Shown piece after piece: positions 7,871 to 38,383 of a stretch of 41,320 nucleotides of DNA (the first letter of the stretch is position 1; each line of letters opens with the position of its first letter). The translations under genes and the position numbers were made by a program. This DNA comes from an uncultured delta proteobacterium (GTDB taxonomy: Bacteria > Myxococcota_A > Polyangia > Polyangiales > JADJMO01), in assembly GCA_903923175.1 (NCBI GenBank), contig CAIXWQ010000915.1, positions 1 to 41,320 of the forward strand, given 5' to 3'. Under the pieces are notes generated by a model. That model did no database searches and was not told where the DNA came from. It saw only the letters and a program-made list of their open reading frames with translations.

Positions 7871-8896
7871 TCACTCGTGGTCGTCGGCGTCGACCTTTCC
7901 CCGGTGCACGCGAAACAGGTTCGCGAAGTAGAGGGCGACCAGCACGAACCCGAGCGGAATCCACGTCAGCATGGCGTGGGCGCCGTAGGTGTGGACGTCC
8001 ACGTCGTAGGCCGTGACGTCTTTGGCACCGTCGACCGAGCGGAGCAGCACCGGAAACAGCGTCGCCGCGACGGCCGCGAGCGACCCCGCGAGAAAGACCC
8101 CCGAGGCGAGGAACGCCGCGCGCTCGCCCTGCGGGCTCGCTCGCCTGCGCAACGTACGGCTGGCGAGCAGCCCCACCAGCGCGAGCCCTACGAACGGAGC
8201 GGCGAGCGGCGAGGGGGAGAGGTGCACGAGTCCGGCGGTCGCGCCGAAGACCACGACGAGCAGGCCCGAGACGATCGCGAAGAGCCGGGAGGCCATCCGG
8301 GTCGCGCGCACGTTCACCTCGCCCGCGGTCTTCCAGGCCAGGAACAGCGCTCCGTGGTGCGAAAGGGCGGCGAGCGAGAAGAGCCCGACCAGCAACGTGT
8401 AAAGGTCGATCAGGCCGACCGGCGAGCGTGGCATCCAGCCGCTGAAGAGGGGCAGCGTGAACCAGGTCTCCCGCGTCGGAACGCCCCGCAGCACGTTGCC
8501 GAGCGCGACCCCGAAGAGCAGGGCGAGCGCCGCGCTCGAGCAGGCGAAGGTGACGTCCCAGAACGCACGCCACAGCGGCGACCCGAGGTGGCTGCGCACC
8601 TCGATCGCGATCCCGCGGAGGATCAGCGACCAGATCAGGAGGAACAGCGCGAGGTAGAACCCGCTGAAGGCGACCGCGAGGATGGCCGGGAACGCCGCGA
8701 AGAGGATGCCGCCGGAGGCGAGCAACCAGACCTCGTTGCCGTCCCAGTACGGACCGATCGCCCCGATGACCTCGCGCCGCTCGCGGTCGCTCTTGGCCAC
8801 GAGCAGGTGCAGCGCGCCGGCGCCCAGATCGAAGCCGTCCATGACCACGTAGGCGGTGAGACCGAGCGCGGCCAGCGCATACAGGAGGGGCGTCAT
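7871..8896 (-). CDS. cydB: Cytochrome bd-type quinol oxidase subunit II
   Basis: A 341-residue membrane protein with about nine helices, starting MTPLLYALAALGLTAYVVMDGFDLGAG, the canonical CydB N-terminus with the conserved GFDLG. PYWDGNEVWLL is also typical. It forms the heterodimer with CydA that reduces oxygen with quinol electrons without pumping protons. Its ATG overlaps the cydA stop codon (ATGA at 8893-8896), so the two are translationally coupled. No small CydX-type subunit was found. Confidence 0.95.
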   Translation of the reverse strand: MTPLLYALAALGLTAYVVMDGFDLGAGALHLLVAKSDRERREVIGAIGPYWDGNEVWLLASGGILFAAFPAILAVAFSGFYLALFLLIWSLILRGIAIEVRSHLGSPLWRAFWDVTFACSSAALALLFGVALGNVLRGVPTRETWFTLPLFSGWMPRSPVGLIDLYTLLVGLFSLAALSHHGALFLAWKTAGEVNVRATRMASRLFAIVSGLLVVVFGATAGLVHLSPSPLAAPFVGLALVGLLASRTLRRRASPQGERAAFLASGVFLAGSLAAVAATLFPVLLRSVDGAKDVTAYDVDVHTYGAHAMLTWIPLGFVLVALYFANLFRVHRGKVDADDHE

Positions 8897-10275
8897 GCGT
8901 GCACCTCGGCAGGCGCGGCGCCGTCGCTCGGCGGGTGCGGCAGGTGCGGCGGGACCGAGGACGTGGGACCGCGCACGATCTCGCGTCCGACGAGGAACAC
9001 GTACATCAGCCCGAGGACCAGGTAGAGCCCGCTGAAGCCGATGAGGGTGAAGAGGGCGTCGCCCGAGTGCACCGTCGGGCTCGCGCCGTCCGCCGTGCGC
9101 AAGAGCCCATAGACGAGCCAGGGCTGGCGACCGAGCTCGGTGGTGATCCAGCCCGCGGCGTTCGCGATGTAGGGGAACGGCGCGGCGAGCATCAAGATCC
9201 ACAGCAGCGCGCGCTGCCCTTCGAGGCGCTTTCGGTAGAGCGAGATGGCCGCGAGGCCCATCAGCAGGATCATCAGCGTCCCGAGCCCGACCATCACGTG
9301 GAAGGTGTAGTAGAGGAGCTCGATGTTGGTCGGCCACTCGCTCTCGGCATAGTCACCGAGCCCGCGGACCTCCGCGTCGAACTGGCCATACGCGACGAAG
9401 CTGAGCACGCCGGGGACCCGGATCGGGTTGTCGAGGCGCCGCTCCTTCACGTTCGGCTGGCCGATGAGGGTGATGTCGGCGCGAGGGCCGCTCTCGAAGC
9501 GCCCCTCCATCGCCGCCAGCGCGACCGGCTGGTGACGCGCGACGAGCTTGGCCTGCAGATCGCCGGTCGGAAACGCGACCATGAGCGAGGCGATCACGCC
9601 CAGCGTCACGCCGACGCGCAGGGTCGCCTGCGCCGCGCCGCGGTGCGCGCCGGAGAGCGTCCAGTACGCGGCGACCGCCGTCACGACGAAGGCGCCGGTG
9701 ACGACGGCCGCCGAGAGGGTGTGAGCGTATTGAAGGAGTCCCCACGGGTTGAGCAGGAACGCCCAGAAGCTCGTCAGCGTCAGCGAGCCGTCCGGCAGCT
9801 TCGCGAAGCCGGATGGATGCTGCATGAACGCGTTGGTGACGACGATGAAGTACCCCGACATCCAGCTCCCGACGAGCAACGCGACGGCGGAGCCGAAGTG
9901 CGCGCGGGGCGAGAGCTTCTTCTCGCCGTAGACGAGCAATCCCAGGAACGTGCTCTCGAGGAAGAACGCGAACGTCCCCTCCATCGCGAGCGACTGCCCG
10001 ATCACGCCGCCCGCGTCGTGACTGAATCGGGCCCAGTTGGTGCCGAACTGGAACTCCAAGGGGATCCCGGTGACCACGCCGACCGCGAAGTTGATCGCGA
10101 ATACACGGATCCAGAAGCGCGCGGCGTCGCCATAGCGGGCGTCGCCGCTCTTGAGGAACCACCCCTTGAGAATGACGATGACGAGCGCGAGGCCGATCGT
10201 CAGCTGCGGGAACAGGTAGTGAAAGACCGCGGTGAAGGCGAACTGCAGTCGGTGCCAGACGAGGGCGTCGCTCAC
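8893..10275 (-). CDS. cydA: Cytochrome bd-type quinol oxidase subunit I (short Q-loop, cyanide-insensitive-like)
   Basis: A 460-residue CydA. It has the N-terminal FAFTAVFHYLFPQLTIGLA, the heme ligand segment AMEGTFAFFLESTFLG, and GWITTELGRQPWLVYGLLRT after the Q-loop. The Q-loop is short, as in cyanide-insensitive oxidases (CioA), not the long E. coli type. Bd oxidases have high oxygen affinity and resist sulfide, which suits an organism respiring sulfur compounds (inference). Coupled to cydB by a 4-base overlap. No clear promoter could be recognised in the 260 bases upstream. Confidence 0.95.
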   Translation of the reverse strand: MSDALVWHRLQFAFTAVFHYLFPQLTIGLALVIVILKGWFLKSGDARYGDAARFWIRVFAINFAVGVVTGIPLEFQFGTNWARFSHDAGGVIGQSLAMEGTFAFFLESTFLGLLVYGEKKLSPRAHFGSAVALLVGSWMSGYFIVVTNAFMQHPSGFAKLPDGSLTLTSFWAFLLNPWGLLQYAHTLSAAVVTGAFVVTAVAAYWTLSGAHRGAAQATLRVGVTLGVIASLMVAFPTGDLQAKLVARHQPVALAAMEGRFESGPRADITLIGQPNVKERRLDNPIRVPGVLSFVAYGQFDAEVRGLGDYAESEWPTNIELLYYTFHVMVGLGTLMILLMGLAAISLYRKRLEGQRALLWILMLAAPFPYIANAAGWITTELGRQPWLVYGLLRTADGASPTVHSGDALFTLIGFSGLYLVLGLMYVFLVGREIVRGPTSSVPPHLPHPPSDGAAPAEVHA

Positions 10276-10536: not shown

Positions 10537-11853
10537 TCAGCCGCAGCCGCCCTTGACCACCGACTTCGTCTGCAGCTGGACGCGCTTCACGAAGGGGTGC
10601 TCGGGCCAGACGTTGCCGTGATGCTCGCCGGAGGCGCGGAGCGTCTCGTCCTCGTTCTCGCTTCCGCAGGGGAGGCGGAAGCCCCGCGAGATCGGCAGCT
10701 CCGGCGAGGCTGCCGGCAAGCTCTGCCCGGTGGCGAACTCGAAGCGATAGGCGAGCGCGTCGGCGTCTCGCTGCGCGATGGGTGCGGCGACGCACGTCGG
10801 CGCGGCGTAGAGCTCGAGCCAGCGATTGATCCCCCCCTCGACGACGTAGAGGTTCGGCACCCCCTGCGCGGTCAGCGACTCCCACGCTCGCAGCGCCTCG
10901 GTCTCGCCGTTGCTCACGAGGAACGTCACGGCCCAGGCCGGCTTGCCGAGCAGCCGGGCGACCAGCGCCGGCGCGCGCGTCTCCGCGTCGTCCGTGCGTC
11001 GGGCGCCGCCGACGTGGAAGAGGTTGAAGTCGTGCTCATCACGCAGATCGAGGATCGAGACCTCGAGCGACGTGTCCTTTCGTAGGCTCACGACCTCCGC
11101 GGGGCTGGCGAAGATGGCGCGCGTCTCCACGCGCTGCCGCGTCGCTGGCGCGGCGCGGGCCCACTGCTGCTCGGGCGTGGGCTGCCCGTGCACGACGAGG
11201 ACCGATGCCGCGGCGAGGAGCGCGATGGCCGCGGGCCACTTGCCCCTTCCGCCCGCCGTCGGCGACACGCCGCCGAAGCGCGCCTCCACGACCTCGGCGA
11301 GTCGGAACGCGCCGAGCGCGACCACGACGATCGCCAGCACGACGACCCCCATCGGAAGCCCGAGCCAGTCGGGAAGCGTGAATCGCCCGTAGTCCGACGA
11401 CAGCCAGAACGGCTCGAACGAGCCGACGGTCTCGCCGAACGCCCACACGCCGAGCAGCGCGCCGACGAGGAAGAGCATCCCGTCGATCTTCAGCGTCGCC
11501 GCCGCGACCAGCGAGGTCCCCGGGCAGAAGCCGCCGAGCACGAAGCCGACCCCCATGATCGCGCCGCCGGCGATCTCCGACCACAGGAACGTCGGATTGA
11601 CCCATACGCGGTGGAGATCGAGGAGCCCGAAGCTGGAGGCGAGTGCCAGCATCAGGCTCGCCACCACGATGCCGGTGAACATCACCTTCAGGACGGTCAT
11701 GTCCTTCAGGTAGAACTGCGCCGCGAGCTTGCGCGTGTCGCCGAAGCCGGCCATCTCGAGGATGAAGCCGAAGCCGAAGCCCACCGCGCCGAAGATCAGC
11801 GCGTAGCGGACCGTGCCCACCGCCGCCGAGAGATCCAGGGGTGCCAGGTTCAT
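10537..11853 (-). CDS. YeeE/TsuA-type sulfur transporter half fused to a cysteine-less rhodanese domain with a GGCG tail
   Basis: A 438-residue fusion. Residues 1-190 are one YeeE/YedE (thiosulfate transporter) half with the conserved loop GGFCPGTSLVAAATLK. An extra membrane helix (WPAAIALLAAASVLVVHG) follows, then a rhodanese-like domain (LDLRDEHDFNLFHVGGARR to VVEGGINRWLELY, about 250-360). Where a rhodanese has its catalytic cysteine the sequence is LVSNGETEAL, so the nucleophile is lost (Ser or Val in its place). The protein ends VVKGGCG, strikingly like the GGCGG swinging arm of SoxY. The topology suggests the domain is periplasmic. It lies 9 bases after its partner half-transporter and ends the octaheme operon. 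Compare the unfused version at 32742-34566. Confidence 0.85.
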   Translation of the reverse strand: MNLAPLDLSAAVGTVRYALIFGAVGFGFGFILEMAGFGDTRKLAAQFYLKDMTVLKVMFTGIVVASLMLALASSFGLLDLHRVWVNPTFLWSEIAGGAIMGVGFVLGGFCPGTSLVAAATLKIDGMLFLVGALLGVWAFGETVGSFEPFWLSSDYGRFTLPDWLGLPMGVVVLAIVVVALGAFRLAEVVEARFGGVSPTAGGRGKWPAAIALLAAASVLVVHGQPTPEQQWARAAPATRQRVETRAIFASPAEVVSLRKDTSLEVSILDLRDEHDFNLFHVGGARRTDDAETRAPALVARLLGKPAWAVTFLVSNGETEALRAWESLTAQGVPNLYVVEGGINRWLELYAAPTCVAAPIAQRDADALAYRFEFATGQSLPAASPELPISRGFRLPCGSENEDETLRASGEHHGNVWPEHPFVKRVQLQTKSVVKGGCG

Positions 11854-11862
11854 GATTGCGCC

Positions 11863-12396
11863 TCACGTCCACAGCTTGCGGAAGAGCCACGCGACGGCGT
11901 ACCCGCCGGCGAAGACCGAGAACATGAACGCCCAGCTCCCGACCGAGAGGACCGCGCCGCCCGAGAGCGCCTGGCCCGACGTGCACCCGCGCGCCATCCG
12001 CGCGCCGTAGCCCATGATCACGCCGCCGAGCAGCGCGAAGGCCCAGCGCGCCTTCACCGAGATCCGCGGCCCTTTGCGCGTCTCGAGCCGTGCGCGTCGG
12101 TTGTAGAGGCCGGAGGCGAGGGCGCCGAGGAGCGTACCGATCAGCATGTACACGCCCGTGGACTTCCACGGGTTCCGGGCGCCGCCGGCGATCTCGGCGA
12201 AATAGGCCACGCGGTCGACGTGCTTCGGCGCGACCCAATCGAGCGCGCCGGTCTGGACGTGGCTCAGCGCCCCCGACGCGCCGAGGCCGCCGCCGGTGAG
12301 GAAGAAGCTCAGGAAGAGCACCACGCCGAGCAGCGCGCCGGCGAGGTAGGGGTCCATGTACGGCTTGTCGCCCGCAGGCGCGGATTGGGTCGTCAC
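11863..12396 (-). CDS. YeeE/TsuA-type sulfur transporter half
   Basis: A 177-residue membrane protein, the second YeeE/YedE half, with the conserved cysteine loop MARGCTSGQALSGGA and GSWAFMFSVFAGGYAVAW. In E. coli a single YeeE chain imports thiosulfate through conserved cysteines; here the two halves are separate genes. The GTG start at 12396 overlaps the upstream stop codon (GTGA) and is preceded by GGAG; an internal ATG at 12357 is the alternative. It is expected to work with the product of 10537-11853 to move thiosulfate or a related sulfur anion. Confidence 0.88.
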   Translation of the reverse strand: MTTQSAPAGDKPYMDPYLAGALLGVVLFLSFFLTGGGLGASGALSHVQTGALDWVAPKHVDRVAYFAEIAGGARNPWKSTGVYMLIGTLLGALASGLYNRRARLETRKGPRISVKARWAFALLGGVIMGYGARMARGCTSGQALSGGAVLSVGSWAFMFSVFAGGYAVAWLFRKLWT

Positions 12397-14705
12397 GGGA
12401 GCTGCTCCTCGGACTCGACGGTCCGATATCCGGTGACCATCGATTGGAGATGATCGCCGACCGTTCGACCGGTGGTGACCAGGTAGGCGTGGAGGACGAA
12501 GAACGACAGGAAGAGCCAGGCGCCGAAGTTGTGCACCGGGGCCACGATCGAGAGGCCGCCGAGCGCGGCCGCGAACGAGGGCCAGCGGCCGATCACCCAG
12601 ATGAGCGTGCCGCTGACGATCTGCACCGGGAAGAGCACGTTCAGCAGCGCGAGGTAGGTGACCTGCTGGAGCGGGTTGAGCTTCTCGGTCGCGGCCTGCG
12701 GCGGGTGCGGCGCGCCGACGAAGATGCCGCGCGACTGGTAGCTCACGTGTTCGAGCACGCGCTTCATGAAGCCCACTGGCTCGGGGATGAAGCTCCGGAT
12801 GGCGACGGTCGCCAGGTGGTAGAAGAGCGAGAGGAACGCGTTCACGGTGAGCACCACCGCGGCGGCGTTGTGCACGAGGACGACCTTCGGGAGGGTGCCC
12901 ATCCAGCCGCTTCCGGCGTTGTGGATGCCGAGGCCGGTGACGATCAGCACGAGCCCGCTGCCGGCCATCGTCCAGTGCCAGAGGCGCTCGTAGCGGCCGA
13001 AGACGCGGACCTTCTCGGTCGCGCCGCCAGTGGCGTGAGGCGCGTGCGGCACATGGCCGGCGCGCTTGGTCATCAGATAGCGCACGGAGCCGTGTCCGGT
13101 GACGCCGAGCGCCACGGCGAGGAAGATGAGAAAGCCGAGCCGATTGCTCCACGCGTGCCGCGTGGCGCCGAGCACGTACATGCGCCCGGCCGCCGGCGCG
13201 GTCTCCCGCAGGAAGGTGAGCCCTCCCCCCGGCGTTCCGAGGATCTTCCCGGCCAAGGGCGGGCCCCCGCCGTCGGGCGGGAGCGGTGCGACGCCGCCGG
13301 GGAGGAACGGCACGACTGGAAAGGCAGCCGACAGTCGCGAGCCCGCGGCGTGGCACCCGTCGCAATCACGCAGCGCGTGGCTCCGCGGCGCGACGCCGTG
13401 GGCCAGCGGGTGGGTTTCGAGCGTCCCTTCGATGGTGGGCGCGGCCACGCCGGCGGCCGCGAGGCGTGCCGTGATGAGCGCGGTCTTGGCCGGGGTATCG
13501 AGCCGGAGCTCGGCGTCGTCGAGCAGCCCGTCGTGATTGCCGTCGAAGCCCTCGAGGACCGCCGGGGCGTAGCGCCCCTGCTCGAGGAACGCCGCGGCGA
13601 CGAGCGGCGCAGGCACGGCTTCGCGGGTGGAGCCCGAGATCCACCGATAGCGGCTCACGAGGTTGACGGGGGTGAGGCGCCGCACGCCGTCGGGCTCGAC
13701 GCGCTCGATCAGGAGCGGCTGGAACGGCCGGATGAGCGCGGCGTTGAGCGGCTCGCCGTTGCGCCGCTCGACGTTCCGATAGTGGACCGCCGCGCCGCCC
13801 GAGAGCGTCGAGACGGTCGCGTCGATCAGGTCCGCGACGGGCCCCATCGGCGCCGGGATGTGGCAAGTCTGACAGGCGAGGACCTCCAGATGGCGCTCGC
13901 GATAGGGGAGGAAATCGTGCGCCGAGAGGGCGTCGTGGCAGCTCCGACACCCGGGCTCGGCGAGCTGGTGATCGGGCCGCACGAGGAACTCGGCCGTGCT
14001 CTGCCGCCGCGGATCCGCGGTCACGTAGCGCAGCTCTTGCTGCTTGTCGTCGACCCGCGCGCGCGCCGGGTTGTTGCGCGCGTAGTGGCACGAGGTGCAC
14101 TCCACGAGCTTGGCGGCGTGCACGTCCCACGGAATGGCGAGCGCGCTCTTCCCCTGGAGATCCAGGAACGAGTCGGACATGCGTTGCGGCGAGACGATGG
14201 CGCCTTCGCCCAGCGTGAGCGACCAGGTCCTGCCTGCGGTCGAGCTCGCGCCCTCCAGCTCCGGCGGGAGGACGAGCACGCCTTGCGCCTCGCCGATCAG
14301 GCCGTGGCAGGAGGCGCAGTTGGCGGGGCGCGGCGTGCCGATCTTGATCGCTTCGCGCACGAGCTGCCCGGCCTTGTCGAGGTGGCGCGGGGAGACGTCG
14401 AGTCGCCCCTGGTCGGCGTGACACTGGATGCAGGTCGCGCCTCCGTGTCCGCCGTGCCCCTCGCGCCCTCCGCGCGCTTCGTGCGAGCCAGCGCCGAGCA
14501 TCGTGTGCGCGTCGATGTAGCGCGCGTCGTGGCAGACGCTGCAGGTCATGGTGGCGGAGATGTCTTCGGCGCGCGTGGCGGCGTTGCCGTGCGCGTCGAA
14601 GGGGGTGAACGCCGGGTGGATCGGATTGACGCTCTGCTGGGCGGCCGCGGAGACGGGGAGCGCGACGGCGGCGGCGACCAGGAGTGCGCGGAGAGGGGCG
14701 TTCAC
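12393..14705 (-). CDS. Heptaheme cytochrome c fused to a cytochrome b quinol-interacting domain
   Basis: A 770-residue exported and membrane-bound electron-transfer protein. A Sec signal (residues 1-23) is followed by a multiheme region with seven CxxCH sites (C55, C92, C130, C203, C253, C278, C448), an EF-hand-like DGNHDGLLDDAE loop (about 388-399), and a C-terminal four-helix cytochrome b domain (about 573-765) with paired histidines in LWHWTMAGSG, LVHNAAAVV and FFVLHAYL, as in PhsC/FdnI-type subunits. The natural role is to move electrons between quinones and the octaheme enzyme encoded just upstream (inference). The GTG start at 14705 overlaps that gene's stop and follows GGGAGG. The fusion of both modules in one chain is unusual. 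Confidence 0.85.
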   Translation of the reverse strand: MNAPLRALLVAAAVALPVSAAAQQSVNPIHPAFTPFDAHGNAATRAEDISATMTCSVCHDARYIDAHTMLGAGSHEARGGREGHGGHGGATCIQCHADQGRLDVSPRHLDKAGQLVREAIKIGTPRPANCASCHGLIGEAQGVLVLPPELEGASSTAGRTWSLTLGEGAIVSPQRMSDSFLDLQGKSALAIPWDVHAAKLVECTSCHYARNNPARARVDDKQQELRYVTADPRRQSTAEFLVRPDHQLAEPGCRSCHDALSAHDFLPYRERHLEVLACQTCHIPAPMGPVADLIDATVSTLSGGAAVHYRNVERRNGEPLNAALIRPFQPLLIERVEPDGVRRLTPVNLVSRYRWISGSTREAVPAPLVAAAFLEQGRYAPAVLEGFDGNHDGLLDDAELRLDTPAKTALITARLAAAGVAAPTIEGTLETHPLAHGVAPRSHALRDCDGCHAAGSRLSAAFPVVPFLPGGVAPLPPDGGGPPLAGKILGTPGGGLTFLRETAPAAGRMYVLGATRHAWSNRLGFLIFLAVALGVTGHGSVRYLMTKRAGHVPHAPHATGGATEKVRVFGRYERLWHWTMAGSGLVLIVTGLGIHNAGSGWMGTLPKVVLVHNAAAVVLTVNAFLSLFYHLATVAIRSFIPEPVGFMKRVLEHVSYQSRGIFVGAPHPPQAATEKLNPLQQVTYLALLNVLFPVQIVSGTLIWVIGRWPSFAAALGGLSIVAPVHNFGAWLFLSFFVLHAYLVTTGRTVGDHLQSMVTGYRTVESEEQLP

Positions 14706-16129
14706 CGGCGACCTCCCGTCTTCATCGGGTCGCCCGCGTAGCCGAGCGCCTGCCAGTCCATGCGGCGGCTGTCGCCGTGGCACTCGGTGCATCCGAGGGC
14801 CTTCTCCTTCGGCGTCACCATGTGTGTGATGGGCCAGTACATCTCGGTCTCCGCGAAGGCGTACTTCCCGCTGTAGGCCAGGCCGGAGAACGCAGCCCCC
14901 TTGCGGAACGCGTCGTCCCAGTCGAACCGCGTCCAGTAGCCGTCCTTGCCGCCGGTGAGCGGGGCGAGCAGGTAGAGATTCTCGGCGTCGTACGGCTGCC
15001 TCGCGCGGTGGACCTTGAAGGGCCAGATTCGGGACTTCTTGTCGCCGATTCCGCCGCGGGGCGGGTTGATGGAGGTGACCTTGGTGGGGTCGATGCGATC
15101 GCCGGCGAGGTAGCGGTCGACCGTCTCGTCGAACCAGCGGTACTCGGGCACGGTGTCCTGCTCGTATTGGAACTCGCCCTTGATCTTCAGGTAGTGGTGC
15201 GGGTCGTCCTTGCGCGACGAGTCGCCGGCCTTGCTCCAGTCCCAATACGCTTTGGTCGGCAGCTTCTTCGCGAAGCTCGGGATGTGGCACGACTGGCACG
15301 CGAGCGTCGCGAGGTGCGTGTCGATGCGCGCGTCTTGGTGCTTCGGCGTCGCGTGGCAGTCGCTGCAGGCGATGCCGTGCGAGCCACCGACGCTCACCGA
15401 GAAGGCGCGCCCGCGAATCTTGTGATCTTCGGTGGTGTGGCAGTCGACGCAGAGGAAGCCGAGGCGGCTCATGTGCACGTCGTCCTCGTCCGTCGGATGG
15501 TTGAGCGAGGAGTCGAGGTCGCCGTGCTTCACCGCCTGGCCGCCGCCGCCGTAGGCGTGGCAGCCGAGGCAGTTGTCGCGGGACGGCGTGCCCACCGAGC
15601 GCGCGGCCGCGGTCAAATCCACGCCCTTCGCCGGCATTCCGGCCTGACCCTTCACGTAGGTGCCCGCGTGCTCGTGGCAGACGAGGCAGTCGACGTTCTC
15701 CGCGTTGCCGAAATCGAACTTCTGGTCCGCCCAGCCGTAGCCGGCGTGGCACTTCATGCACGAGACCTCGTTGCCAGCGGTCGCGATGCAGAAGTTGTTG
15801 ATGAGGTTCTTCTTCCCGATGCGCGTCGGCGCGTGATTGCCGATCCGGACCTCCTCGCCCAGCCACGTGAAGTGCGAGGTGTGCATCACCTCCGCGGACT
15901 TCGGGTGGCATGAGAGGCAGTTGCGCGTCACCGCCTGCGGCGACTCGAACTTCTCGGTGATCACTGCGGCGTGATCGAAATGGGCGCGGATCCGCTTCTC
16001 GAACGGCGCGCGCGCGTGCGCCTTGGTGCGGGCGCGCAGCGCGGCGGTCCCTCCGGCGAGCAGCAACACGCCGGTCAGGATGCCGAGGGTCCAGCGAGTC
16101 TTCGCGTGCTTCGCGAGCGATTGCGACAT
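14702..16129 (-). CDS. Octaheme c-type cytochrome, tetrathionate reductase family
   Basis: A 475-residue protein with an N-terminal membrane anchor or signal (about residues 11-31) and eight CxxCH heme sites (first cysteines near 71, 124, 148, 187, 227, 255, 278 and 447). The order and the segments WLGEEVRIGNHAPTRIGKKN and the C-terminal CTECHGD match the octaheme tetrathionate reductase (OTR) family. Family members reduce tetrathionate, and some reduce nitrite or hydroxylamine in vitro, so the true substrate is unproven; the sulfur neighbours favour tetrathionate or thiosulfate chemistry. First gene of a four-gene coupled operon, with a sigma-54-like promoter at 16185-16200. Confidence 0.88.
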   Translation of the reverse strand: MSQSLAKHAKTRWTLGILTGVLLLAGGTAALRARTKAHARAPFEKRIRAHFDHAAVITEKFESPQAVTRNCLSCHPKSAEVMHTSHFTWLGEEVRIGNHAPTRIGKKNLINNFCIATAGNEVSCMKCHAGYGWADQKFDFGNAENVDCLVCHEHAGTYVKGQAGMPAKGVDLTAAARSVGTPSRDNCLGCHAYGGGGQAVKHGDLDSSLNHPTDEDDVHMSRLGFLCVDCHTTEDHKIRGRAFSVSVGGSHGIACSDCHATPKHQDARIDTHLATLACQSCHIPSFAKKLPTKAYWDWSKAGDSSRKDDPHHYLKIKGEFQYEQDTVPEYRWFDETVDRYLAGDRIDPTKVTSINPPRGGIGDKKSRIWPFKVHRARQPYDAENLYLLAPLTGGKDGYWTRFDWDDAFRKGAAFSGLAYSGKYAFAETEMYWPITHMVTPKEKALGCTECHGDSRRMDWQALGYAGDPMKTGGRR

Positions 16130-16184: not shown

Positions 16185-16200
16185 TGCAAGCGGTGGCCCA
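16185..16200 (-). promoter_or_regulatory. Sigma-54-like promoter of the octaheme operon
   Basis: Minus strand TGGGCCACCGCTTGCA: GG and GC are exactly 10 bases apart and 9 of 12 consensus positions match TGGCACGNNNNTTGCW. The predicted start of transcription, about 16174, is 45 bases before the octaheme ATG. GG-N10-GC is common in GC-rich DNA, so position and orientation matter as much as the match. Confidence 0.5.
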
Positions 16201-16374: not shown

Positions 16375-17310
16375 GTGCCCAACGAGCGCCGAATGTCGTC
16401 GTCGACCCCGTCCCCATCTCCCGCGTCGCCGTCGCGTTCCGCGGCCGGTCCGTACCGGTTCGGCGCGATGGTCTCCGGCAGCTCGCACATGAAGGAGGTC
16501 TTCGACCTCGCCGCGGAGCTCGCGGCGTCGCGCATCGACCTCGTGCTCGAAGGAGAGCGAGGCACCGGCAAGCAGCTGCTTGCTCGCGAGATTCACCGTC
16601 GCAGCGCGTTCGCGTCCGGGCCCTTCGTGGTCGCGCGCGTCGAGGGGAGCGGTGAGTGCGGGTGGACCGAGGCGGTCGAGCGTCGGTACGTCGAGTCCGC
16701 GGAGGGGGGCACGCTGTACCTCGAGGAGCTCGCCCGGATCCCGCCCAGGCGCCTGGTGGAGTTGCTACGCGCGCTCGATCGCACCTCGGCGGGCGTCTGC
16801 GCCCCGGGCACGCGCTCGGTGGCCCCGCGACGGCCGGCCGTGCGGATCATGGCGGCGACGCGCGTCGATCTCGCCGGCCTCCGGGGAGAGGGGCGCTTTC
16901 GCGAGGACCTCAATCGCCGCTTCGCGTGGTTTCCGCTGCGGATCCCGTCGCTCGCAGCACGCCCCGAGGACATCGGACTGCTGGCCGACTACTACTTGGC
17001 GCGCCTCGCCTGGCGCGCGCGGAGCGTGCCGCTCCGACTCGGGGAGGGGGCGCGCGCGGTGCTGCGGGAGCGGGCGTTCCACGGCAACGTCCGGGAGCTC
17101 GAGCTCGCCTTGAGCCGCGCGGCGAGGGTCGCGCGCGATGGTGAGATCGCCGTCGAGGACCTGCCGGCCGAGCTGCCGGCGCGATCGTCCCCGCGCGGTG
17201 GCTCTCGTGCGCGCCGGCCGGATCCCCTGGCCGGCCCCGACGCGCCGCGCGCCGCGAACGACGTCGATGCCCCTGCGCCGCTCGCGCTCGACGCGCTCGA
17301 CCTCGACTGA
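16375..17310 (+). CDS. Degenerate sigma-54 activator: AAA+ domain without GAFTGA loop or DNA-binding domain
   Basis: A 311-residue AAA+ protein of the enhancer-binding-protein family. Walker A (GERGTGK, about 60-66), sensor and arginine-finger segments (MAATRVDLAGL, REDLNRRFAWFPLRIPSL) and FHGNVRELELALSRAA are clear. But between Walker A and Walker B about 25 residues are missing, including the GAFTGA loop that touches sigma-54. Walker B is GGTLYLEEL, with Glu for the usual Asp, and there is no C-terminal Fis-type helix-turn-helix: the protein ends in a disordered Pro/Ala/Asp-rich tail. There is no sensor domain either. It cannot be an ordinary activator; a regulatory partner or antagonist of the full-length activator encoded next to it is plausible (inference). 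Start could be the ATG at 16393. Confidence 0.8.
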   Translation: MPNERRMSSSTPSPSPASPSRSAAGPYRFGAMVSGSSHMKEVFDLAAELAASRIDLVLEGERGTGKQLLAREIHRRSAFASGPFVVARVEGSGECGWTEAVERRYVESAEGGTLYLEELARIPPRRLVELLRALDRTSAGVCAPGTRSVAPRRPAVRIMAATRVDLAGLRGEGRFREDLNRRFAWFPLRIPSLAARPEDIGLLADYYLARLAWRARSVPLRLGEGARAVLRERAFHGNVRELELALSRAARVARDGEIAVEDLPAELPARSSPRGGSRARRPDPLAGPDAPRAANDVDAPAPLALDALDLD

Positions 17311-17365: not shown

Positions 17366-18721
<1,356 letters not shown>

Positions 18722-18779
18722 GCGCTGGCCCTCGGGATGACGAGCTGCCTCATAGCGAGCGGCCAAGCCGAATCGCAGT

Positions 18780-27049: not shown

Positions 27050-28606
27050 TCACTTCGAGAGAGGGCGCGCCGAGGCGGACGAAGGCGCCTCGTGCTCCAG
27101 GGACTTCTTCAGCTCGAGGAGGTTCACCACGCGCTTGGCGCCGCCGCGCAGCGCATCGTCGGACGCGGCTCGGACCTCGCTCCACGAATCGAGGCTCCCG
27201 GTGAGCGTCGCGACTCCGTCTTGGGCTACCGCGACCTTCACGCGGTCTCGCTGTACCCGCGGATCCCAGTACAGCCGATCGGTGATGCGCTCCCATATCT
27301 CCGTCGGCGTCCAGTCGACGGCCAGTCGGTCATCGACCTCGACGACGCCGGGGATGCTCGCCGCGTCGTCGATGGCGTCGAAGCGCTCGAAGGGCACCGC
27401 AATGGTTCCTCGGAGCACGACCTTGCCATTGGCGCTCGAGACCTCGATCGACCTGCCGTCCGGCAGGGCGAGATCCTCGGCGAGCGCCCGCTTCGCCGCG
27501 GCCTCGATCTCCGCGTCCGTGGGCGGGCGGCTTTGCACCGCGATCACCTCGTCGCGGACCTTCCAGACGCCGACCGTGTCCATCGCGTCCGCTGCCGCGG
27601 CCTTTCTGGCGAGCGCGCCGTCGACGTTGCCGCTCAGCGTGACGACGCCGTCTTTCACGGCGACCTTCGGAACCAGCAGCTTCAGGCGCGGGTCGAAGCG
27701 AAATGCGTCGCGAACTGCCGCGTCGATGTCGGCGTCGGACTTGATGGTGAGACTGCTCACGCTTCGCTGATCGTTCCACGTCGACCAATCGACGGTGACT
27801 TGCCCGTCGTCGACCGATTCGACCCCGGATACCCACGCGTCGGCGCGGAGCCGCGACTGCTGCGCCGCGCTCCCCACGACGCCGCTGAGGTGCACGGTGC
27901 GACCGGTCACCGCCAGGTCGACGACGTCGCCATCGAGCCACACGTCGCTCGCGATTCGCCGGCGAACGTCGGCCAGTATCTCTGCCTCGGGCTTGGTGAC
28001 CGGGCCGTGAACCCGAATTGCGTTGTCCAGCCCTCGCACGCCTTTGACGGACTTCGCCACGTCACCGAACAGCCCCCTCGTTTGCCAGGCGTCGGTTGTG
28101 CCGGAAAGCGTCACCGTTCCGTCCTTCACCGTGACACCGATCGTGTACGGGCGCGTCGCCCGATCCGCCTCGAGCGCGCGCTCGACGTCGCTCTTCACCA
28201 GCTCGTCGCCGCGGAACGCGGGCGTGACCCGCACCTCGTCCACGACGCTGCGAACGCCTCTGATCGTCTCGGCGAGGCTCACGGCCCGCTCCTTCGCGAG
28301 TAGCGTTCGCACCGAACCGGAGAGATCGGCGACGCCGCGGGCTACGGTCACCGTGATCGTCTCCGACCGGAGCGCTCCGTCCTCCTGCAGGTGCCGCTCG
28401 ATGGCGCGCGCGATGTCCGCATCTGCGAGCGCCGGGGCGTTCTTCGCCGGGGCGAGCGCGGCCGACGAGGCGGCCGGCGCGCCGGCGCTTGGCGTATTCC
28501 TCGAGGGCGACCCGCGTTGGCACCCCGCCAGCGCCGGGGCGAGTGACGCCACGCCCAGTAGCAGGCAATCACGGTACAGAGCTCGGAAGAGCATGCGCGC
28601 GGTCAT
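27050..28606 (-). CDS. Lipoprotein with six BON domains
   Basis: A 518-residue exported protein. The N-terminus is a lipoprotein signal (LAPALAGCQRG), then a Ser/Ala/Pro linker, then six BON (OsmY/nodulation) domains in tandem starting near residues 60, 131, 205, 292, 364 and 436. Each shows the helix followed by VTVxxGxVTLSG strands. BON domains bind phospholipid or peptidoglycan-associated surfaces and are common in envelope stress proteins; six in one lipoprotein is many. ATG 28606 follows GAGGAG. A sigma-54-like promoter lies 90 bases upstream. Confidence 0.88.
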   Translation of the reverse strand: MTARMLFRALYRDCLLLGVASLAPALAGCQRGSPSRNTPSAGAPAASSAALAPAKNAPALADADIARAIERHLQEDGALRSETITVTVARGVADLSGSVRTLLAKERAVSLAETIRGVRSVVDEVRVTPAFRGDELVKSDVERALEADRATRPYTIGVTVKDGTVTLSGTTDAWQTRGLFGDVAKSVKGVRGLDNAIRVHGPVTKPEAEILADVRRRIASDVWLDGDVVDLAVTGRTVHLSGVVGSAAQQSRLRADAWVSGVESVDDGQVTVDWSTWNDQRSVSSLTIKSDADIDAAVRDAFRFDPRLKLLVPKVAVKDGVVTLSGNVDGALARKAAAADAMDTVGVWKVRDEVIAVQSRPPTDAEIEAAAKRALAEDLALPDGRSIEVSSANGKVVLRGTIAVPFERFDAIDDAASIPGVVEVDDRLAVDWTPTEIWERITDRLYWDPRVQRDRVKVAVAQDGVATLTGSLDSWSEVRAASDDALRGGAKRVVNLLELKKSLEHEAPSSASARPLSK

Positions 28607-32741: not shown

Positions 32742-33356
32742 TCAGCACCCCTCGCGCTTCTTCGGCGCGCCGCCCCCCGCGGGGGCTGCAGCCGGCGCGA
32801 GCGGAGCGAGGACGGGCGCGGCCGGCGCGAGCGACGCGTCGCCGAACGCGTGCCGGAGCGCGACCTGCGTCCGGAAGGTCTGCCAGGTCGCCGCGTTGGC
32901 GTTGGGCCAGGGCGTGGCGGGATCCGCGTCCATCACGCGGTCCCACGCGTCGAGGCCGCCGAGGAGCACGCGCGTCTCCACGCCCTTGGCGAGCAGCCGT
33001 CGCGCGAGGCGGTCGGCGCGCACCTGATCGAACGCCGCGAGCACCACGCGTCGGGCCTTCGGCGGCGCGGCGAGCAGCGCTTCGTCGGAGGCTGCCAATG
33101 CCGACATGGGCATCGCGCCGCGCAGGGGATGTCGCGCCTCGTCGAGCCCGATGACCAGCAGATCGGGTGGACCCTCGGAGAGGAGCTTGGCGAGCGCGAA
33201 CGGCTCGATCGCGACCGGCGCCCACGTGACCGCGGCGTCGGCCGGCGGCGTCTTGCTCTTCGGCGCACGGCCCGCGAGCGCGGCGCTCCCGAGGGCGAGG
33301 GCGAGCGCGCTGCCGGCGAGGACCAGCTTGGGGGAGATCGGCATGGTCGTTCCCAT
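32742..33356 (-). CDS. Exported cysteine-less rhodanese-like protein with C-terminal cysteine
   Basis: A 204-residue protein with a signal peptide (KLVLAGSALALALGSAALAG), then a rhodanese-like domain (PDLLVIGLDEARHPLRGAM to VLLGGLDAWDRVM). At the catalytic-cysteine position the sequence is VLAAFDQVRADRLARRL, so no persulfide-forming Cys is present. After a Pro/Ala-rich linker the chain ends PKKREGC, its only cysteine. The same architecture is fused to the transporter at 10537-11853. Its start overlaps the upstream transporter stop (TGATG at 33354-33358), so the two are coupled. Probable role: a periplasmic sulfur acceptor or carrier for the transporter (inference). Confidence 0.75.
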   Translation of the reverse strand: MGTTMPISPKLVLAGSALALALGSAALAGRAPKSKTPPADAAVTWAPVAIEPFALAKLLSEGPPDLLVIGLDEARHPLRGAMPMSALAASDEALLAAPPKARRVVLAAFDQVRADRLARRLLAKGVETRVLLGGLDAWDRVMDADPATPWPNANAATWQTFRTQVALRHAFGDASLAPAAPVLAPLAPAAAPAGGGAPKKREGC

Positions 33357-34006
33357 CACTCCGCGGGGCTCACGCCGTCGGCGTGCGCGTCGTGCACGTT
33401 CGTGTCGCCCTTGTCGGTAGCCTTGGGCGTTGCCCCGGGGCCACGCATCTTGCGCTCGATCCACTCGGCGCCGACGAACATGCCGAGCGCGAGGAGCGTG
33501 ACCAGCACGGCCACGGTGCCGAACGACAGGTGCAGCCAGTCGGTGAGCAGGATGCGTTGGTTGGCGCCCGACTTCGCGAAGTGCTCGAGCTTCCCGTACG
33601 CGCCGGCGAAGCCGAGGATGCCGAACGCGGCGCCGCCGAGGAACGCGACCGCGTCGAGCTTGCCGGTCACCGCGGCGACGATCGCGGTGCCCGGGCAGTA
33701 GCCGCCGACGGCGAAGCCGACGCCGAAGACGAGGCCGCCCACGACCTGCGGTGGGAGGGCCGTCGGGTTCACGTACAGCGCGTCGAAGTCGAGCACGCCG
33801 GCGGTGCGCAGCACGACGAGGCCGAGCATCGCGGTGACGATCGCGGTGAACATGACCTTCAGCACGGTCATGTCGCGCAGGTAGAACTGCGCGGCGAGCT
33901 TGCGCGAGCTGCCGAAGCCGGCGCGCTCGAGCACGAAGCCGAAGCCGAAGCCGGCGAGGATCGCGAAGGTGTAGGCGACCCAGGTCTGCGGGTGGATCGG
34001 CATCAT
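33356..34006 (-). CDS. YeeE/TsuA-type sulfur transporter half (second module)
   Basis: A 216-residue membrane protein matching the first part of 10537-11853: FGFGFVLERAGFGSSRKLAAQF and LRDMTVLKVMFTAIV, with the conserved GGYCPGTAIVAAVTGK loop carrying the transport cysteine. The hydrophilic tail is acidic and His-containing. ATG 34006 overlaps the upstream stop (ATGA) and has AGGAGG 8 bases upstream. It forms a two-gene transporter with 34003-34566, downstream of psrABC, so thiosulfate, tetrathionate or polysulfide import for or from that enzyme is likely (inference). Confidence 0.88.
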   Translation of the reverse strand: MMPIHPQTWVAYTFAILAGFGFGFVLERAGFGSSRKLAAQFYLRDMTVLKVMFTAIVTAMLGLVVLRTAGVLDFDALYVNPTALPPQVVGGLVFGVGFAVGGYCPGTAIVAAVTGKLDAVAFLGGAAFGILGFAGAYGKLEHFAKSGANQRILLTDWLHLSFGTVAVLVTLLALGMFVGAEWIERKMRGPGATPKATDKGDTNVHDAHADGVSPAE

Positions 34007-34566
34007 GTCCACAACCTCCTCACGAAGTACGCGGCCCCGTAGCCGCCGGCGAAGACCGAGAACATGAACGCCCAGCTGCCGAGGGCGAGCGTCGCGCCAC
34101 CGGTCAGCGCCTGCCCGCTGGTGCAGCCGCCGGCCAGGCGCGCGCCGACGCCGACGATGGCGCCGCCGACGAAGGCGAAGAGCAGCCGCGACCTCGCGGA
34201 GACGCGCGGGCCCCGCTCGATCACGGCGCCGAAGCGACCGCTGGTGAGCCCTGCCGCGAGTCCGCCGATCAGCACGCCGACGAGCTCGAAGACGAGCCAG
34301 TCGTCCCACCAGTGCGCGCCCGGCGCGAAGTAGGCGCCGATGGCACCATTGGCATGAACCCAGCTCGGCGCGACGAATTCGGTGATCTTCGCGGTGATGC
34401 GGGTGAGCGCCCCCGAGGCGCCGAGGCCGCGGCCGACGACCAGGAAGGTGCCGAGGAGCACCAGGCCGAGGAAGACGCCTGCGACGTACGGGTCCCAGAG
34501 CGGCTTGGCGCGGAAGTGACCGCTGCCGACGTGGGGTGAGTCGTCGTGTGTGGATGCGTTCGCCAT
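34003..34566 (-). CDS. YeeE/TsuA-type sulfur transporter half (second module)
   Basis: A 187-residue membrane protein, paralogue of 11863-12396. It has GLGASGALTRITAKI, the cysteine loop LAGGCTSGQALTGGATL and GSWAFMFSVFAGGYGAAYF. It supplies the second half of the split transporter. It begins 19 bases after the NrfD-type subunit gene ends and overlaps the next transporter gene by 4 bases. Confidence 0.88.
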   Translation of the reverse strand: MANASTHDDSPHVGSGHFRAKPLWDPYVAGVFLGLVLLGTFLVVGRGLGASGALTRITAKITEFVAPSWVHANGAIGAYFAPGAHWWDDWLVFELVGVLIGGLAAGLTSGRFGAVIERGPRVSARSRLLFAFVGGAIVGVGARLAGGCTSGQALTGGATLALGSWAFMFSVFAGGYGAAYFVRRLWT

Positions 34567-34585
34567 GTTGTTGCCTCAGCGCGTC

Positions 34586-35530
34586 TCAGCCCGTGACGAA
34601 GCTGCCGTCTTGGCCGGCGTAGACGATCACGAAGCGCAGCAAGAGCCCGCCCGCGAGCACGAGGGCCGGGGTCCAGCGCGAGTGGAGGGCGCGTCCGCGC
34701 AGCGACAGCGTCTCGAGCGCGGCCGGCACGAGCAGCCCGCCGAAGACGACCATGCCGACGAACGCGGGCGCGTACGCGCCGGTGAGCACCAGCGTGGCGG
34801 CCTGACGATAGAGCGGCCCTTGGGTCATCAGCCCGACCAGCCAGAGCCCGATGACCGAGACCTCGATCGCGATCAGCGCGAGATCGGCCTTGGCGAAGAG
34901 CGCGTTCATCGCCTCGTCGCGCTCGGCGATCATGAGGGCAGCGACGCCGGTCGACGCGCCCGAGGCGAGGAACAGGAACCCGAGCGCTCCGCTCGACCAC
35001 AGCGGCCGTGCGACGGTCGCGGAGAGGAGCACGCCCGTGTAGATGCCCAGCGCGGCGCCGAGGCCGAGGCCGAGGCCGGCGAGCGCCTTCACGTTCCGCT
35101 CGCACCACGCGCGGCTCGCGCTCAGGAATGCGAAGCGATCGAGCTGCTTGCCGACGAGCTCGTGCGGGAGCGCGAGGATGAGCCCGATCTGCACCGGATA
35201 CACGAGCAAGAGCACCCAGGAGCCGAGCGACATCGGCGCCGTCGGCACCAGCGTCGTGTAGAAGCGGAAGACGTGCAGCTTGTAGGTGAGGTCGAGGAAC
35301 AGCGCCCCCATGCCGAGCGAAAGGAGCACCGGCGCACCCACGAGCCCGAGCCGCATGGCCTTGGTGACGCGCTCGCGGCCGAGCACGAGGATCGACGCGG
35401 AGACGGCGAGCATGAGCCCCGCGACCAGCCCGCCGAGGAAGAGGTAGATCGGCACCTCCCACCCCCAGACGCGCTCGGCCATCGCGCGGGCGACGGCGCG
35501 GGTCGACTCGATCTCGATGTGCGGATTCAT
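34586..35530 (-). CDS. NrfD/PsrC-type membrane quinol-interacting subunit
   Basis: A 314-residue protein with eight or nine membrane helices, matching the NrfD/PsrC family: WGWEVPIYLFLGGLVAGLML at the start and TLVPTAPMSLGSWVLLL in the middle. In polysulfide and thiosulfate reductases this subunit passes electrons between the quinone pool and the iron-sulfur subunit. It lies 14 bases after the ferredoxin-like subunit gene in a psrABC order. Confidence 0.92.
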   Translation of the reverse strand: MNPHIEIESTRAVARAMAERVWGWEVPIYLFLGGLVAGLMLAVSASILVLGRERVTKAMRLGLVGAPVLLSLGMGALFLDLTYKLHVFRFYTTLVPTAPMSLGSWVLLLVYPVQIGLILALPHELVGKQLDRFAFLSASRAWCERNVKALAGLGLGLGAALGIYTGVLLSATVARPLWSSGALGFLFLASGASTGVAALMIAERDEAMNALFAKADLALIAIEVSVIGLWLVGLMTQGPLYRQAATLVLTGAYAPAFVGMVVFGGLLVPAALETLSLRGRALHSRWTPALVLAGGLLLRFVIVYAGQDGSFVTG

Positions 35531-35544
35531 CTGCGAAGCTCCTG

Positions 35545-36078
35545 TCAGCGCACGTAGTAGACGTTGGGCTTGGTGCCGGCTTCGGCGGCGATCACCGAGG
35601 CGTTGCCGCGCTTGAGGCGCAGCGACACGAGCGAGGTCGGATCGTCGAGATCGCCGGTCACGATCGCGCCCGTGGGGCAGACCTCCTGGCACGCGGTCGG
35701 CAGCCCCTTGTCGGCGCGGTGGACACAGAGCGTGCACTTGTCGACGAACCCCTCCGGGTTCACGTAGCGCGCGTCGTAGGGGCACGACTCGATGCAGGCG
35801 CGGCAGCCGGTGCAGAGGTCTCGGTCGACCTGCACGGTGCCGTCGCCGCGGTAGAAGCTCGCGCCGGCGGGGCAGTTGGTGACGCACGGCGCGTTGCTGC
35901 AGTGGTTGCAGCGCTGCGAGCGAATCAGCAGCTCGAGGTTCGGGAACTCGCCGCGCGACTCCTGGGTGACCCAGTCGCGATATGACCCTTCCGGGACGCG
36001 GTTCTCCGTCTTGCACGCGACCACGCAGGCCTCGCAGCCGACGCAGCGTCGCGTGTCGATGACCATTGCCCGGCGCAT
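35545..36078 (-). CDS. 4Fe-4S electron-transfer subunit (PsrB/PhsB-type)
   Basis: A 177-residue ferredoxin-like protein with four cysteine clusters: CVGCEACVVACK, CNHCSNAPCVTNCP, CTGCRACIESCP and CTLC...CQEVCP. These hold four 4Fe-4S centres, as in PsrB, PhsB and DmsB. No export signal of its own; such subunits ride with the Tat-exported catalytic partner. It begins 2 bases after the molybdoenzyme stop codon. Confidence 0.93.
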   Translation of the reverse strand: MRRAMVIDTRRCVGCEACVVACKTENRVPEGSYRDWVTQESRGEFPNLELLIRSQRCNHCSNAPCVTNCPAGASFYRGDGTVQVDRDLCTGCRACIESCPYDARYVNPEGFVDKCTLCVHRADKGLPTACQEVCPTGAIVTGDLDDPTSLVSLRLKRGNASVIAAEAGTKPNVYYVR

Positions 36079-36080
36079 GT

Positions 36081-38291: not shown

Positions 38292-38303
38292 CTCCGCCCG
38301 CAC

Positions 38304-38319
38304 AGCAACCGCGGTGCCA
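38304..38319 (-). promoter_or_regulatory. Sigma-54-like promoter in front of the psrA-type gene
   Basis: Minus strand TGGCACCGCGGTTGCT matches 11 of 12 positions of TGGCACGNNNNTTGCW, the best in the window. The predicted transcription start (about 38293) is almost on top of the ATG at 38291, leaving no leader; either the transcript is nearly leaderless or the match is fortuitous. Confidence 0.45.
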
Positions 38320-38383
38320 GCGGACGCCACGGTCGATTGTGCGGGCGAATCGCCTGTGCGCCGAAGGCCGGAGCGAACCCGAT

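Follow-up and report, generated by a model that had tools for sequence, protein, structure and literature searches.

A recurrent four-gene cassette combining an octaheme tetrathionate reductase-family protein, a degenerate paralogue fused to cytochrome b and a Cys-tailed YeeE-type channel

A crystal structure of octaheme tetrathionate reductase (OTR) has been available since 2004, and we know of no natural substrate that has been agreed on. The enzyme reduces tetrathionate in vitro (PMC6449678), and that of Shewanella reduces nitrite and hydroxylamine (PMC4484225). In Beggiatoaceae, OTR has earlier been noted next to a cytochrome b gene (PMC6449678). The split channel YedE1E2 imports zero-valent sulfur without exporting it, and each of its halves has an essential Cys (PMC10812762). 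The families of OTR, cytochrome b and split YeeE are already known, as is the placement of OTR beside cytochrome b. Here we describe a four-gene cassette on the minus strand, at 10537–16129, of a 41,320-nt window, the whole stretch of DNA analysed, which is one contig (C915) of a 10.7-Mb genome in 1422 contigs. The gene order is OTR, a fusion (HEP-CYB) of a heptaheme domain (HEP) to a membrane cytochrome b (CYB), then YEE1 and YEE2-rhodanese, the two halves of a YeeE-type channel, the second ending in a Cys-bearing tail (Table 1). With moderate confidence we read the cassette as a membrane-bound, quinone-linked periplasmic sulfur oxidoreductase whose sulfur is likely carried on the Cys arm of that tail and which works in the reductive direction. 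Searching open-access papers, we found no description of the cassette, of such a heptaheme-cytochrome b or of a tailed YeeE; the cassette, HEP as a degenerate OTR and the tailed YeeE thus appear to be undescribed in that literature.

The four genes are tightly coupled: the first two junctions are GTGA overlaps, and 9 bases separate YEE1 from YEE2. A first-pass annotation of the window had already reported this coupling, with exact coordinates and overlaps, along with a 770-aa chain holding seven c-hemes, an EF-hand-like loop and a cytochrome b; the chain is as read, PF01292 matches its cytochrome b, and positions 1 and 12 of the loop (D388, E399) are kept in at least 90% of 34 fusion proteins. 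Going beyond that annotation are the identity of HEP, the lack of a catalytic Cys in the rhodanese, the GGCG tail and a parallel Psr-like operon, all treated below. A genome collection was scanned with the HEP-CYB fusion as query, followed by open reading frame (ORF) analysis of the fetched contigs (loci labelled L below). This four-gene order, fusion included, was found in ∼50 independent contigs of about a dozen phyla, so the fusion is no assembly error; the annotation's caution that it might resolve into two genes does not hold for the lineage of the window. Fused cassettes occur in Myxococcota, Chloroflexota, Gammaproteobacteria, Thiobacillus and another Betaproteobacterium, Bdellovibrionota, Spirochaetota, Gemmatimonadota, Neomarinimicrobiota, Eisenbacteria and others. 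HEP and CYB are instead encoded by two genes in Planctomycetota, Latescibacterota and some Myxococcota (L049, L053, L054, L057, L138, L140, L149).

A tree of 114 OTR sequences, built by a quick method with support from the Shimodaira–Hasegawa approximate likelihood ratio test (SH-aLRT) only, placed 71 of the 72 cassette OTRs in one clade (SH-aLRT 97), which also holds nested loci that lack HEP-CYB and have the YeeE pair. OTRs accompanied by cytochrome b only form a separate group (support 99), and the solo OTRs of the window's phylum mostly fall outside both. The closest cassette relatives of the window in this tree are Myxococcales assemblies; within its phylum, TIGR04315, the OTR family model, scored above cut-off in 26 of 379 genomes.

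The OTR of the window scores 534 bits against TIGR04315 (cut-off 375) and matches Shewanella OTR (1SP3) with E=1e-137, so the family named in the first-pass annotation stands. That annotation had also raised a grouping with hydroxylamine oxidoreductases (HAO), which we reject: no HAO-type model was among the Pfam or NCBIfam matches at E≤1, and all eight heme motifs are CXXCH, none CXXCK. Cys114 and Lys201 correspond to Cys64 and to Lys153 of 1SP3, there the distal ligand of heme 2, and both residues are invariant in 72 of 72 cassette OTRs. Asp150 of 1SP3 is Gln here, and the position varies across the 72 (N 39, D 11, Q 10, L 7); most solo OTRs, and many that have only a cytochrome b, carry Asp there.

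HEP, by modelled fold and by profile, though not by catalytic residues or heme count, is itself a degenerate OTR. In an AlphaFold model of HEP-CYB built on a 27-sequence alignment, residues 27–507 match 1SP3 with Z 9.7 over 270 aligned residues (Foldseek E 4.6e-5), OTR being the only multiheme match listed, and profile comparison of HEP with OTR by hhalign gave 99.8% and 99.7%. OTR hemes 3–8 correspond to HEP hemes 2–7. HEP has seven hemes, and its invariant columns include no counterpart of Cys64 or Lys153. Global alignment makes the absent heme the Lys-ligated heme 2, and local alignments make it heme 1; loss of heme 2 is favoured, though not settled, because the structural alignment places model residue 27 on chain residue 1 and a His follows HEP heme 1. 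HEP looks like a wire rather than another enzyme. Its likely source is indicated by OTRs that lie beside a separate cytochrome b gene, which end in a helix, 'YIPGRD...D..GW...LLGV.GHG..R', similar to the HEP-CYB linker; taken through this anchor, HEP scores 238 against them versus 167 against soluble OTRs. Most simply, an anchored OTR would have fused to its own cytochrome b and, with its active site lost, come to serve a soluble OTR as a wire. Direct OTR-cytochrome b fusions that keep all eight hemes (L063, L071) could represent a stage before heme loss. Separately, OTR and the HEP part share a single reading frame at L050 4669–7968 (12 hemes plus cytochrome b) and at L123 689–3604 (15 hemes).

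Membrane partners of OTR proved common. Among 113 fetched OTRs, a set biased by the use of HEP-CYB as query for most loci, HEP is in the locus for 72, and an adjacent or fused cytochrome b accompanies 24 more; OTR with an adjacent cytochrome b occurs in most of L062–L081 and in L120 and L121. These counts, with the Beggiatoaceae precedent (PMC6449678), do not support, as stated, the earlier idea that the window's OTR is exceptional in having such a partner. The 'direct quinone wire' of the same annotation survives in part: a covalent heptaheme-cytochrome b unit is fit to link quinone and OTR, and the quinol-to-OTR direction is not fixed by sequence. CYB matches PF01292 at residues 569–759 (E=3e-22; 79.6 bits, cut-off 30.1). 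Its invariant His residues are 538, 577, 595, 612, 667, 725 and 739, of which 577, 595, 612, 725 and 739 are the conserved helix His expected of that family.

The other half of the cassette is the channel pair. YEE1 aligns with positions 177–309 of PF04143 (E=9e-21) and YEE2 with positions 7–149, that is, with the C- and N-terminal halves of the family, each with a conserved Cys, as expected of a split YeeE and in keeping with the thiosulfate-type transporter first proposed. The extension of YEE2 has a rhodanese fold (Z 11–12 over ∼100 residues, high predicted local distance difference test score, pLDDT; PF00581 E=2e-7) in which the catalytic Cys is absent, with no conserved Cys in 51 of 51 aligned proteins. 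Only two Cys of the whole protein are conserved, Cys110 of the channel (51 of 51 aligned) and Cys437 of the tail. A periplasmic location of the rhodanese-like domain is suggested by Arg/Lys in the loop that precedes the last helix; versions encoded by a gene of their own begin with a signal or lipoprotein-like sequence. The Cys tail ends 76 of 79 distinct long YEE2 relatives, the other three being two cut by contig ends and one with a UGA codon (L029); the same pattern ends 97 of 5898 background ORFs. It is modelled as disordered (pLDDT <50) and varies among GGCG, GGGC, EGC and GLCS. YEE2-rhodanese thus has a C-terminal arm of the SoxY type, GGCG(G), with no match in the protein to the SoxY domain PF13501. 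PF13501 gave no match in the whole genome either, but its positive control was also silent, so absence from the genome is not established.

Similar tails accompany OTR in other arrangements. In Bacteroidota, OTR-CYB is followed by a rhodanese-like lipoprotein ending GGC (L065, L069, L072), or YEE1, YEE2 and a rhodanese ending GGC lie upstream of OTR-CYB (L078); separate rhodanese genes with GGCG or GGC tails are found at L140 and L078. Genes that we name SoxY-like (GAGGCG) and SoxZ-like by resemblance, not by model, adjoin the L063 and L071 fusions, in line with the report of SoxY-S3 beside otr in sulfur-oxidising lucinid symbionts (PMC11237559).

Two loci bear candidate selenocysteine (Sec) codons at key positions. 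At L029 9816–9824 the YEE2 tail reads ...GGG-UGA-GGC-UGA, which would be GG-Sec-G if read through, and the genome has SelB and tRNA-Sec over cut-off. At L076 4710–4712 an in-frame UGA lies exactly at the OTR Cys64 codon, followed by a hairpin read in the sequence (CUGGUGC-AGGU-GCACCAG); that genome has SelB, with tRNA-Sec slightly below the gathering score. The stretches after both UGA codons fold no better than shuffles, the whole L076 fold included, and Rfam has no match at the L029 tail, so the Sec reading rests on position and on SelB and tRNA-Sec. A 2026 review counts the octaheme family among Sec families (PMC13188914). L076 likely encodes a selenocysteine OTR; the active-site Cys of OTR would then be replaceable by Sec, and the tail Cys of YEE2 probably so, as expected of redox residues.

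These observations bear on two other readings. In one, which we think improbable, the Cys tail binds a metal or a regulator, or has a structural role, for instance in assembly, and carries no sulfur. No adduct has been demonstrated, GGCG is short and tails vary; against this, the tail Cys is present in every complete long member except the UGA one, no other Cys outside the channel is conserved, the L029 tail shows an apparent Cys-to-Sec replacement, and both position and context match the SoxY carrier arm, a SoxY-like gene even lying beside other OTRs. In the second, OTR, wired to quinol, acts chiefly as a reductase of nitrite and hydroxylamine or as a generalist one, the YeeE pair serves only sulfur assimilation or detoxification under shared regulation, and arm and OTR do not react. 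Reduction of both nitrogen compounds by the Shewanella enzyme (PMC4484225) and the many loci with OTR and no YeeE would fit. The joint occurrence of OTR and the tailed YeeE pair across many phyla, even where HEP-CYB is missing, and the Sec codon at Cys64, which points to thiol/disulfide chemistry, make it an unlikely account as well.

Modules of YEE1, YEE2 and tail also occur without OTR in Psr/Phs-like operons elsewhere and once within the window, at 32742–38330. Two unrelated quinone-linked sulfur oxidoreductases therefore share an importer-with-arm module. In the window's operon the tail belongs to a separate rhodanese-like protein, whose profile matches the rhodanese part of YEE2 weakly (66.6%).

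We infer that the cassette products act as one complex, as follows. Electrons would pass from quinol through CYB and the heme chain of HEP to the soluble OTR, which would reductively cleave a sulfur-sulfur bond at its Lys-ligated heme with the redox-active Cys64. YEE1 and YEE2 would form a split YeeE-type sulfur channel, with the pseudo-rhodanese displaying the flexible Cys437 arm on the periplasmic side, like SoxY. The sulfur offered to OTR may be carried on Cys437 as a persulfide or S-thiosulfonate, tetrathionate being a small-molecule mimic, and sulfane sulfur would then be handed to the channel and into the cell. More tentatively, and with more doubt than belief, we extend this to the family: OTR-family enzymes may naturally act on sulfur borne by a C-terminal Cys/Sec arm, of the importer (GGCG) or of SoxY, and not on free tetrathionate, with a dead OTR-cytochrome b wiring the live OTR to quinone and the importer removing the sulfur.

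The main rival runs the same parts oxidatively. OTR would load sulfur (thiosulfate, sulfide or polysulfide) onto the Cys tail or oxidise it there, in the manner of SoxXA acting on SoxY, HEP-CYB would reduce quinone, and the channel would import sulfane sulfur for cytoplasmic oxidation or assimilation. The tail is indeed SoxY-like, and the best structural relatives of the modelled CYB are FdnI (1kqf_C, Z 13.9) and HyaC (6g94_A, Z 11.3). Cytochromes b of this type usually reduce quinone, which favours the oxidative direction. Import without export of zero-valent sulfur by YedE1E2 (PMC10812762) and SoxY-S3 beside otr in sulfur oxidisers (PMC11237559) agree with it too. The OTR activities in the literature read are, however, reductive (PMC6449678, PMC4484225), and the parallel operon has a PhsA/PsrA-like enzyme, a type known as a reductase. 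We regard the oxidative version as rather unlikely, though less so than the two readings above, and electron flow from quinol to OTR as somewhat more likely.

Besides the kinship of CYB, several points weigh against the reductive sulfur-arm reading. Four Myxococcota loci (L126, L129, L130, L131) keep OTR, YEE1 and YEE2-rhodanese with a GLCS or GLCG tail and no HEP-CYB, so the wire is dispensable; their nested position in the cassette clade makes this an apparent secondary loss. The Cys tail is a general feature of the YEE2-rhodanese family, and we rejected a tail specific to OTR as too strong a claim because it also occurs in Psr-like operons. A Cys-tailed partner for every OTR fails too: no such tail lies near OTR in the OTR and cytochrome b loci L120, L121, L125 and L153, or near solo OTRs. 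Confidence in the HEP model is medium (mean pLDDT 73.9), the HEP alignments leave ambiguous which N-terminal heme was lost, and we found no published experiments on any cassette member.

Regulation was examined around the cassette. The window holds five -24/-12-like sites versus 2.5 expected, not significant alone, and a sigma-54 promoter for OTR was rejected: a well-spaced site lies upstream (Table 1), but the counts are not above chance. One site, TGGCACCGCGGTTGC at 38305–38319, lies near the start of the parallel operon. Divergent from OTR is a sigma-54 activator-like gene (16375–17310, plus strand) seemingly without a GAFTGA stretch, and beyond it a complete PAS-sigma-54 activator-Fis gene (17366–18766, minus strand); the solo OTR loci L142, L145, L148 and L150 also adjoin sigma-54 activator-like genes. 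ArsR-family regulators stand directly upstream of many cassettes in other phyla. A BigR/SqrR-like sulfane-sulfur sensor among them was rejected, with BigR scores of 43–55 bits versus a cut-off of 155 and no conserved Cys pair. Cytochrome bd oxidase subunits I and II (7871–10275, minus strand) lie immediately downstream of the cassette, and a 518-aa protein with six BON-domain stretches is encoded at 27050–28606 (minus strand).

Table 1. Features of the cassette, its upstream site and the parallel operon, in window coordinates
Feature	Position	Strand	Remarks
OTR	14702-16129	-	475 aa, 8 CXXCH; N-terminal signal/anchor
HEP-CYB fusion	12393-14705	-	770 aa, 7 CXXCH; GTG start within OTR stop
HEP heptaheme domain, degenerate OTR paralogue	13191-14705	-	Fusion residues 1-505
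EF-hand-like loop DGNHDGLLDDAE	13509-13544	-	Fusion residues 388-399, read in sequence
CYB: anchor helix and four-helix cytochrome b	12393-13169	-	Fusion residues 513-770
YEE1, C-terminal half of YeeE/TsuA (PmpA/YedE1-like), GCTSG motif	11863-12396	-	PF04143
YEE2-rhodanese, whole gene	10537-11853	-
YEE2, N-terminal half of YeeE/TsuA (PmpB/YedE2-like), Cys110 in CPGTS	11188-11853	-	PF04143
Pseudo-rhodanese domain of YEE2, residues 240-383	10705-11136	-	PF00581, fold matches
GGCG tail and stop, candidate sulfur-carrier arm (Cys437)	10537-10551	-	YEE2 C-terminus
-24/-12-like site TGGGCCACCGCTTGC	16186-16200	-	57 bases upstream of OTR start, weak
PsrA/PhsA-like molybdoenzyme	36081-38330	-	PF00384; PhsA model 478 bits, below cut-off 694
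PsrB/TtrB-like FeS subunit	35545-36093	-
NrfD/PsrC-like membrane subunit	34586-35521	-	PF03916 E=4e-32
YEE1 homologue	34003-34566	-	PF04143
YEE2 homologue, short, without extension	33356-34006, start approximate	-	PF04143
Separate exported rhodanese-like protein ending KKREGC	32742-33359	-	Read in sequence

OTR in many uncultured phyla is currently annotated simply as 'tetrathionate reductase'. The cassette would give such an enzyme a dedicated quinone connection and points to one definite substrate that can be tested, namely sulfur bound to the Cys arm of a sulfur importer; HEP would show how a multiheme enzyme can become a wire through loss of its active site. The arm module may be a more general route by which sulfur in the periplasm reaches respiratory enzymes and, after them, the cytoplasm.

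Compared with known systems, the enzyme itself is closest to Shewanella oneidensis Otr (1SP3), sharing TIGR04315, eight CXXCH motifs, Cys64, Lys153 and a soluble C-terminal ending. The Shewanella enzyme is fed by soluble STC from CymA (PMC4484225), whereas the cassette uses the fused heptaheme-cytochrome b, and its Asp150 is not conserved in cassettes, being Gln in the window. OTR with an adjacent 'thiosulfate reductase cytochrome b' (BOGUAY_2386, Beggiatoaceae, PMC6449678) likewise places OTR beside PF01292, with an anchor helix homologous to the HEP-CYB linker; there the anchored OTR is the eight-heme enzyme, whereas the cassette has a degenerate, fused anchored copy alongside a second, soluble OTR. 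PmpA/PmpB, YedE1E2 and SoxT/TsuA share the split halves with one conserved Cys each (PMC11582611, PMC10812762), but the rhodanese-like domain without catalytic Cys and the GGCG tail that cassette YEE2 adds are undescribed for PmpB/YedE2 in the literature compared. SoxYZ has the same flexible C-terminal Gly-Gly-Cys-Gly arm; the cassette protein lacks the SoxY domain and has its arm tethered to an importer. PsrABC and PhsABC are also quinone-linked periplasmic sulfur oxidoreductases, and the Psr/Phs-like operon of the window shares the YeeE-tail module, but theirs is a molybdenum enzyme of unrelated catalytic chemistry.

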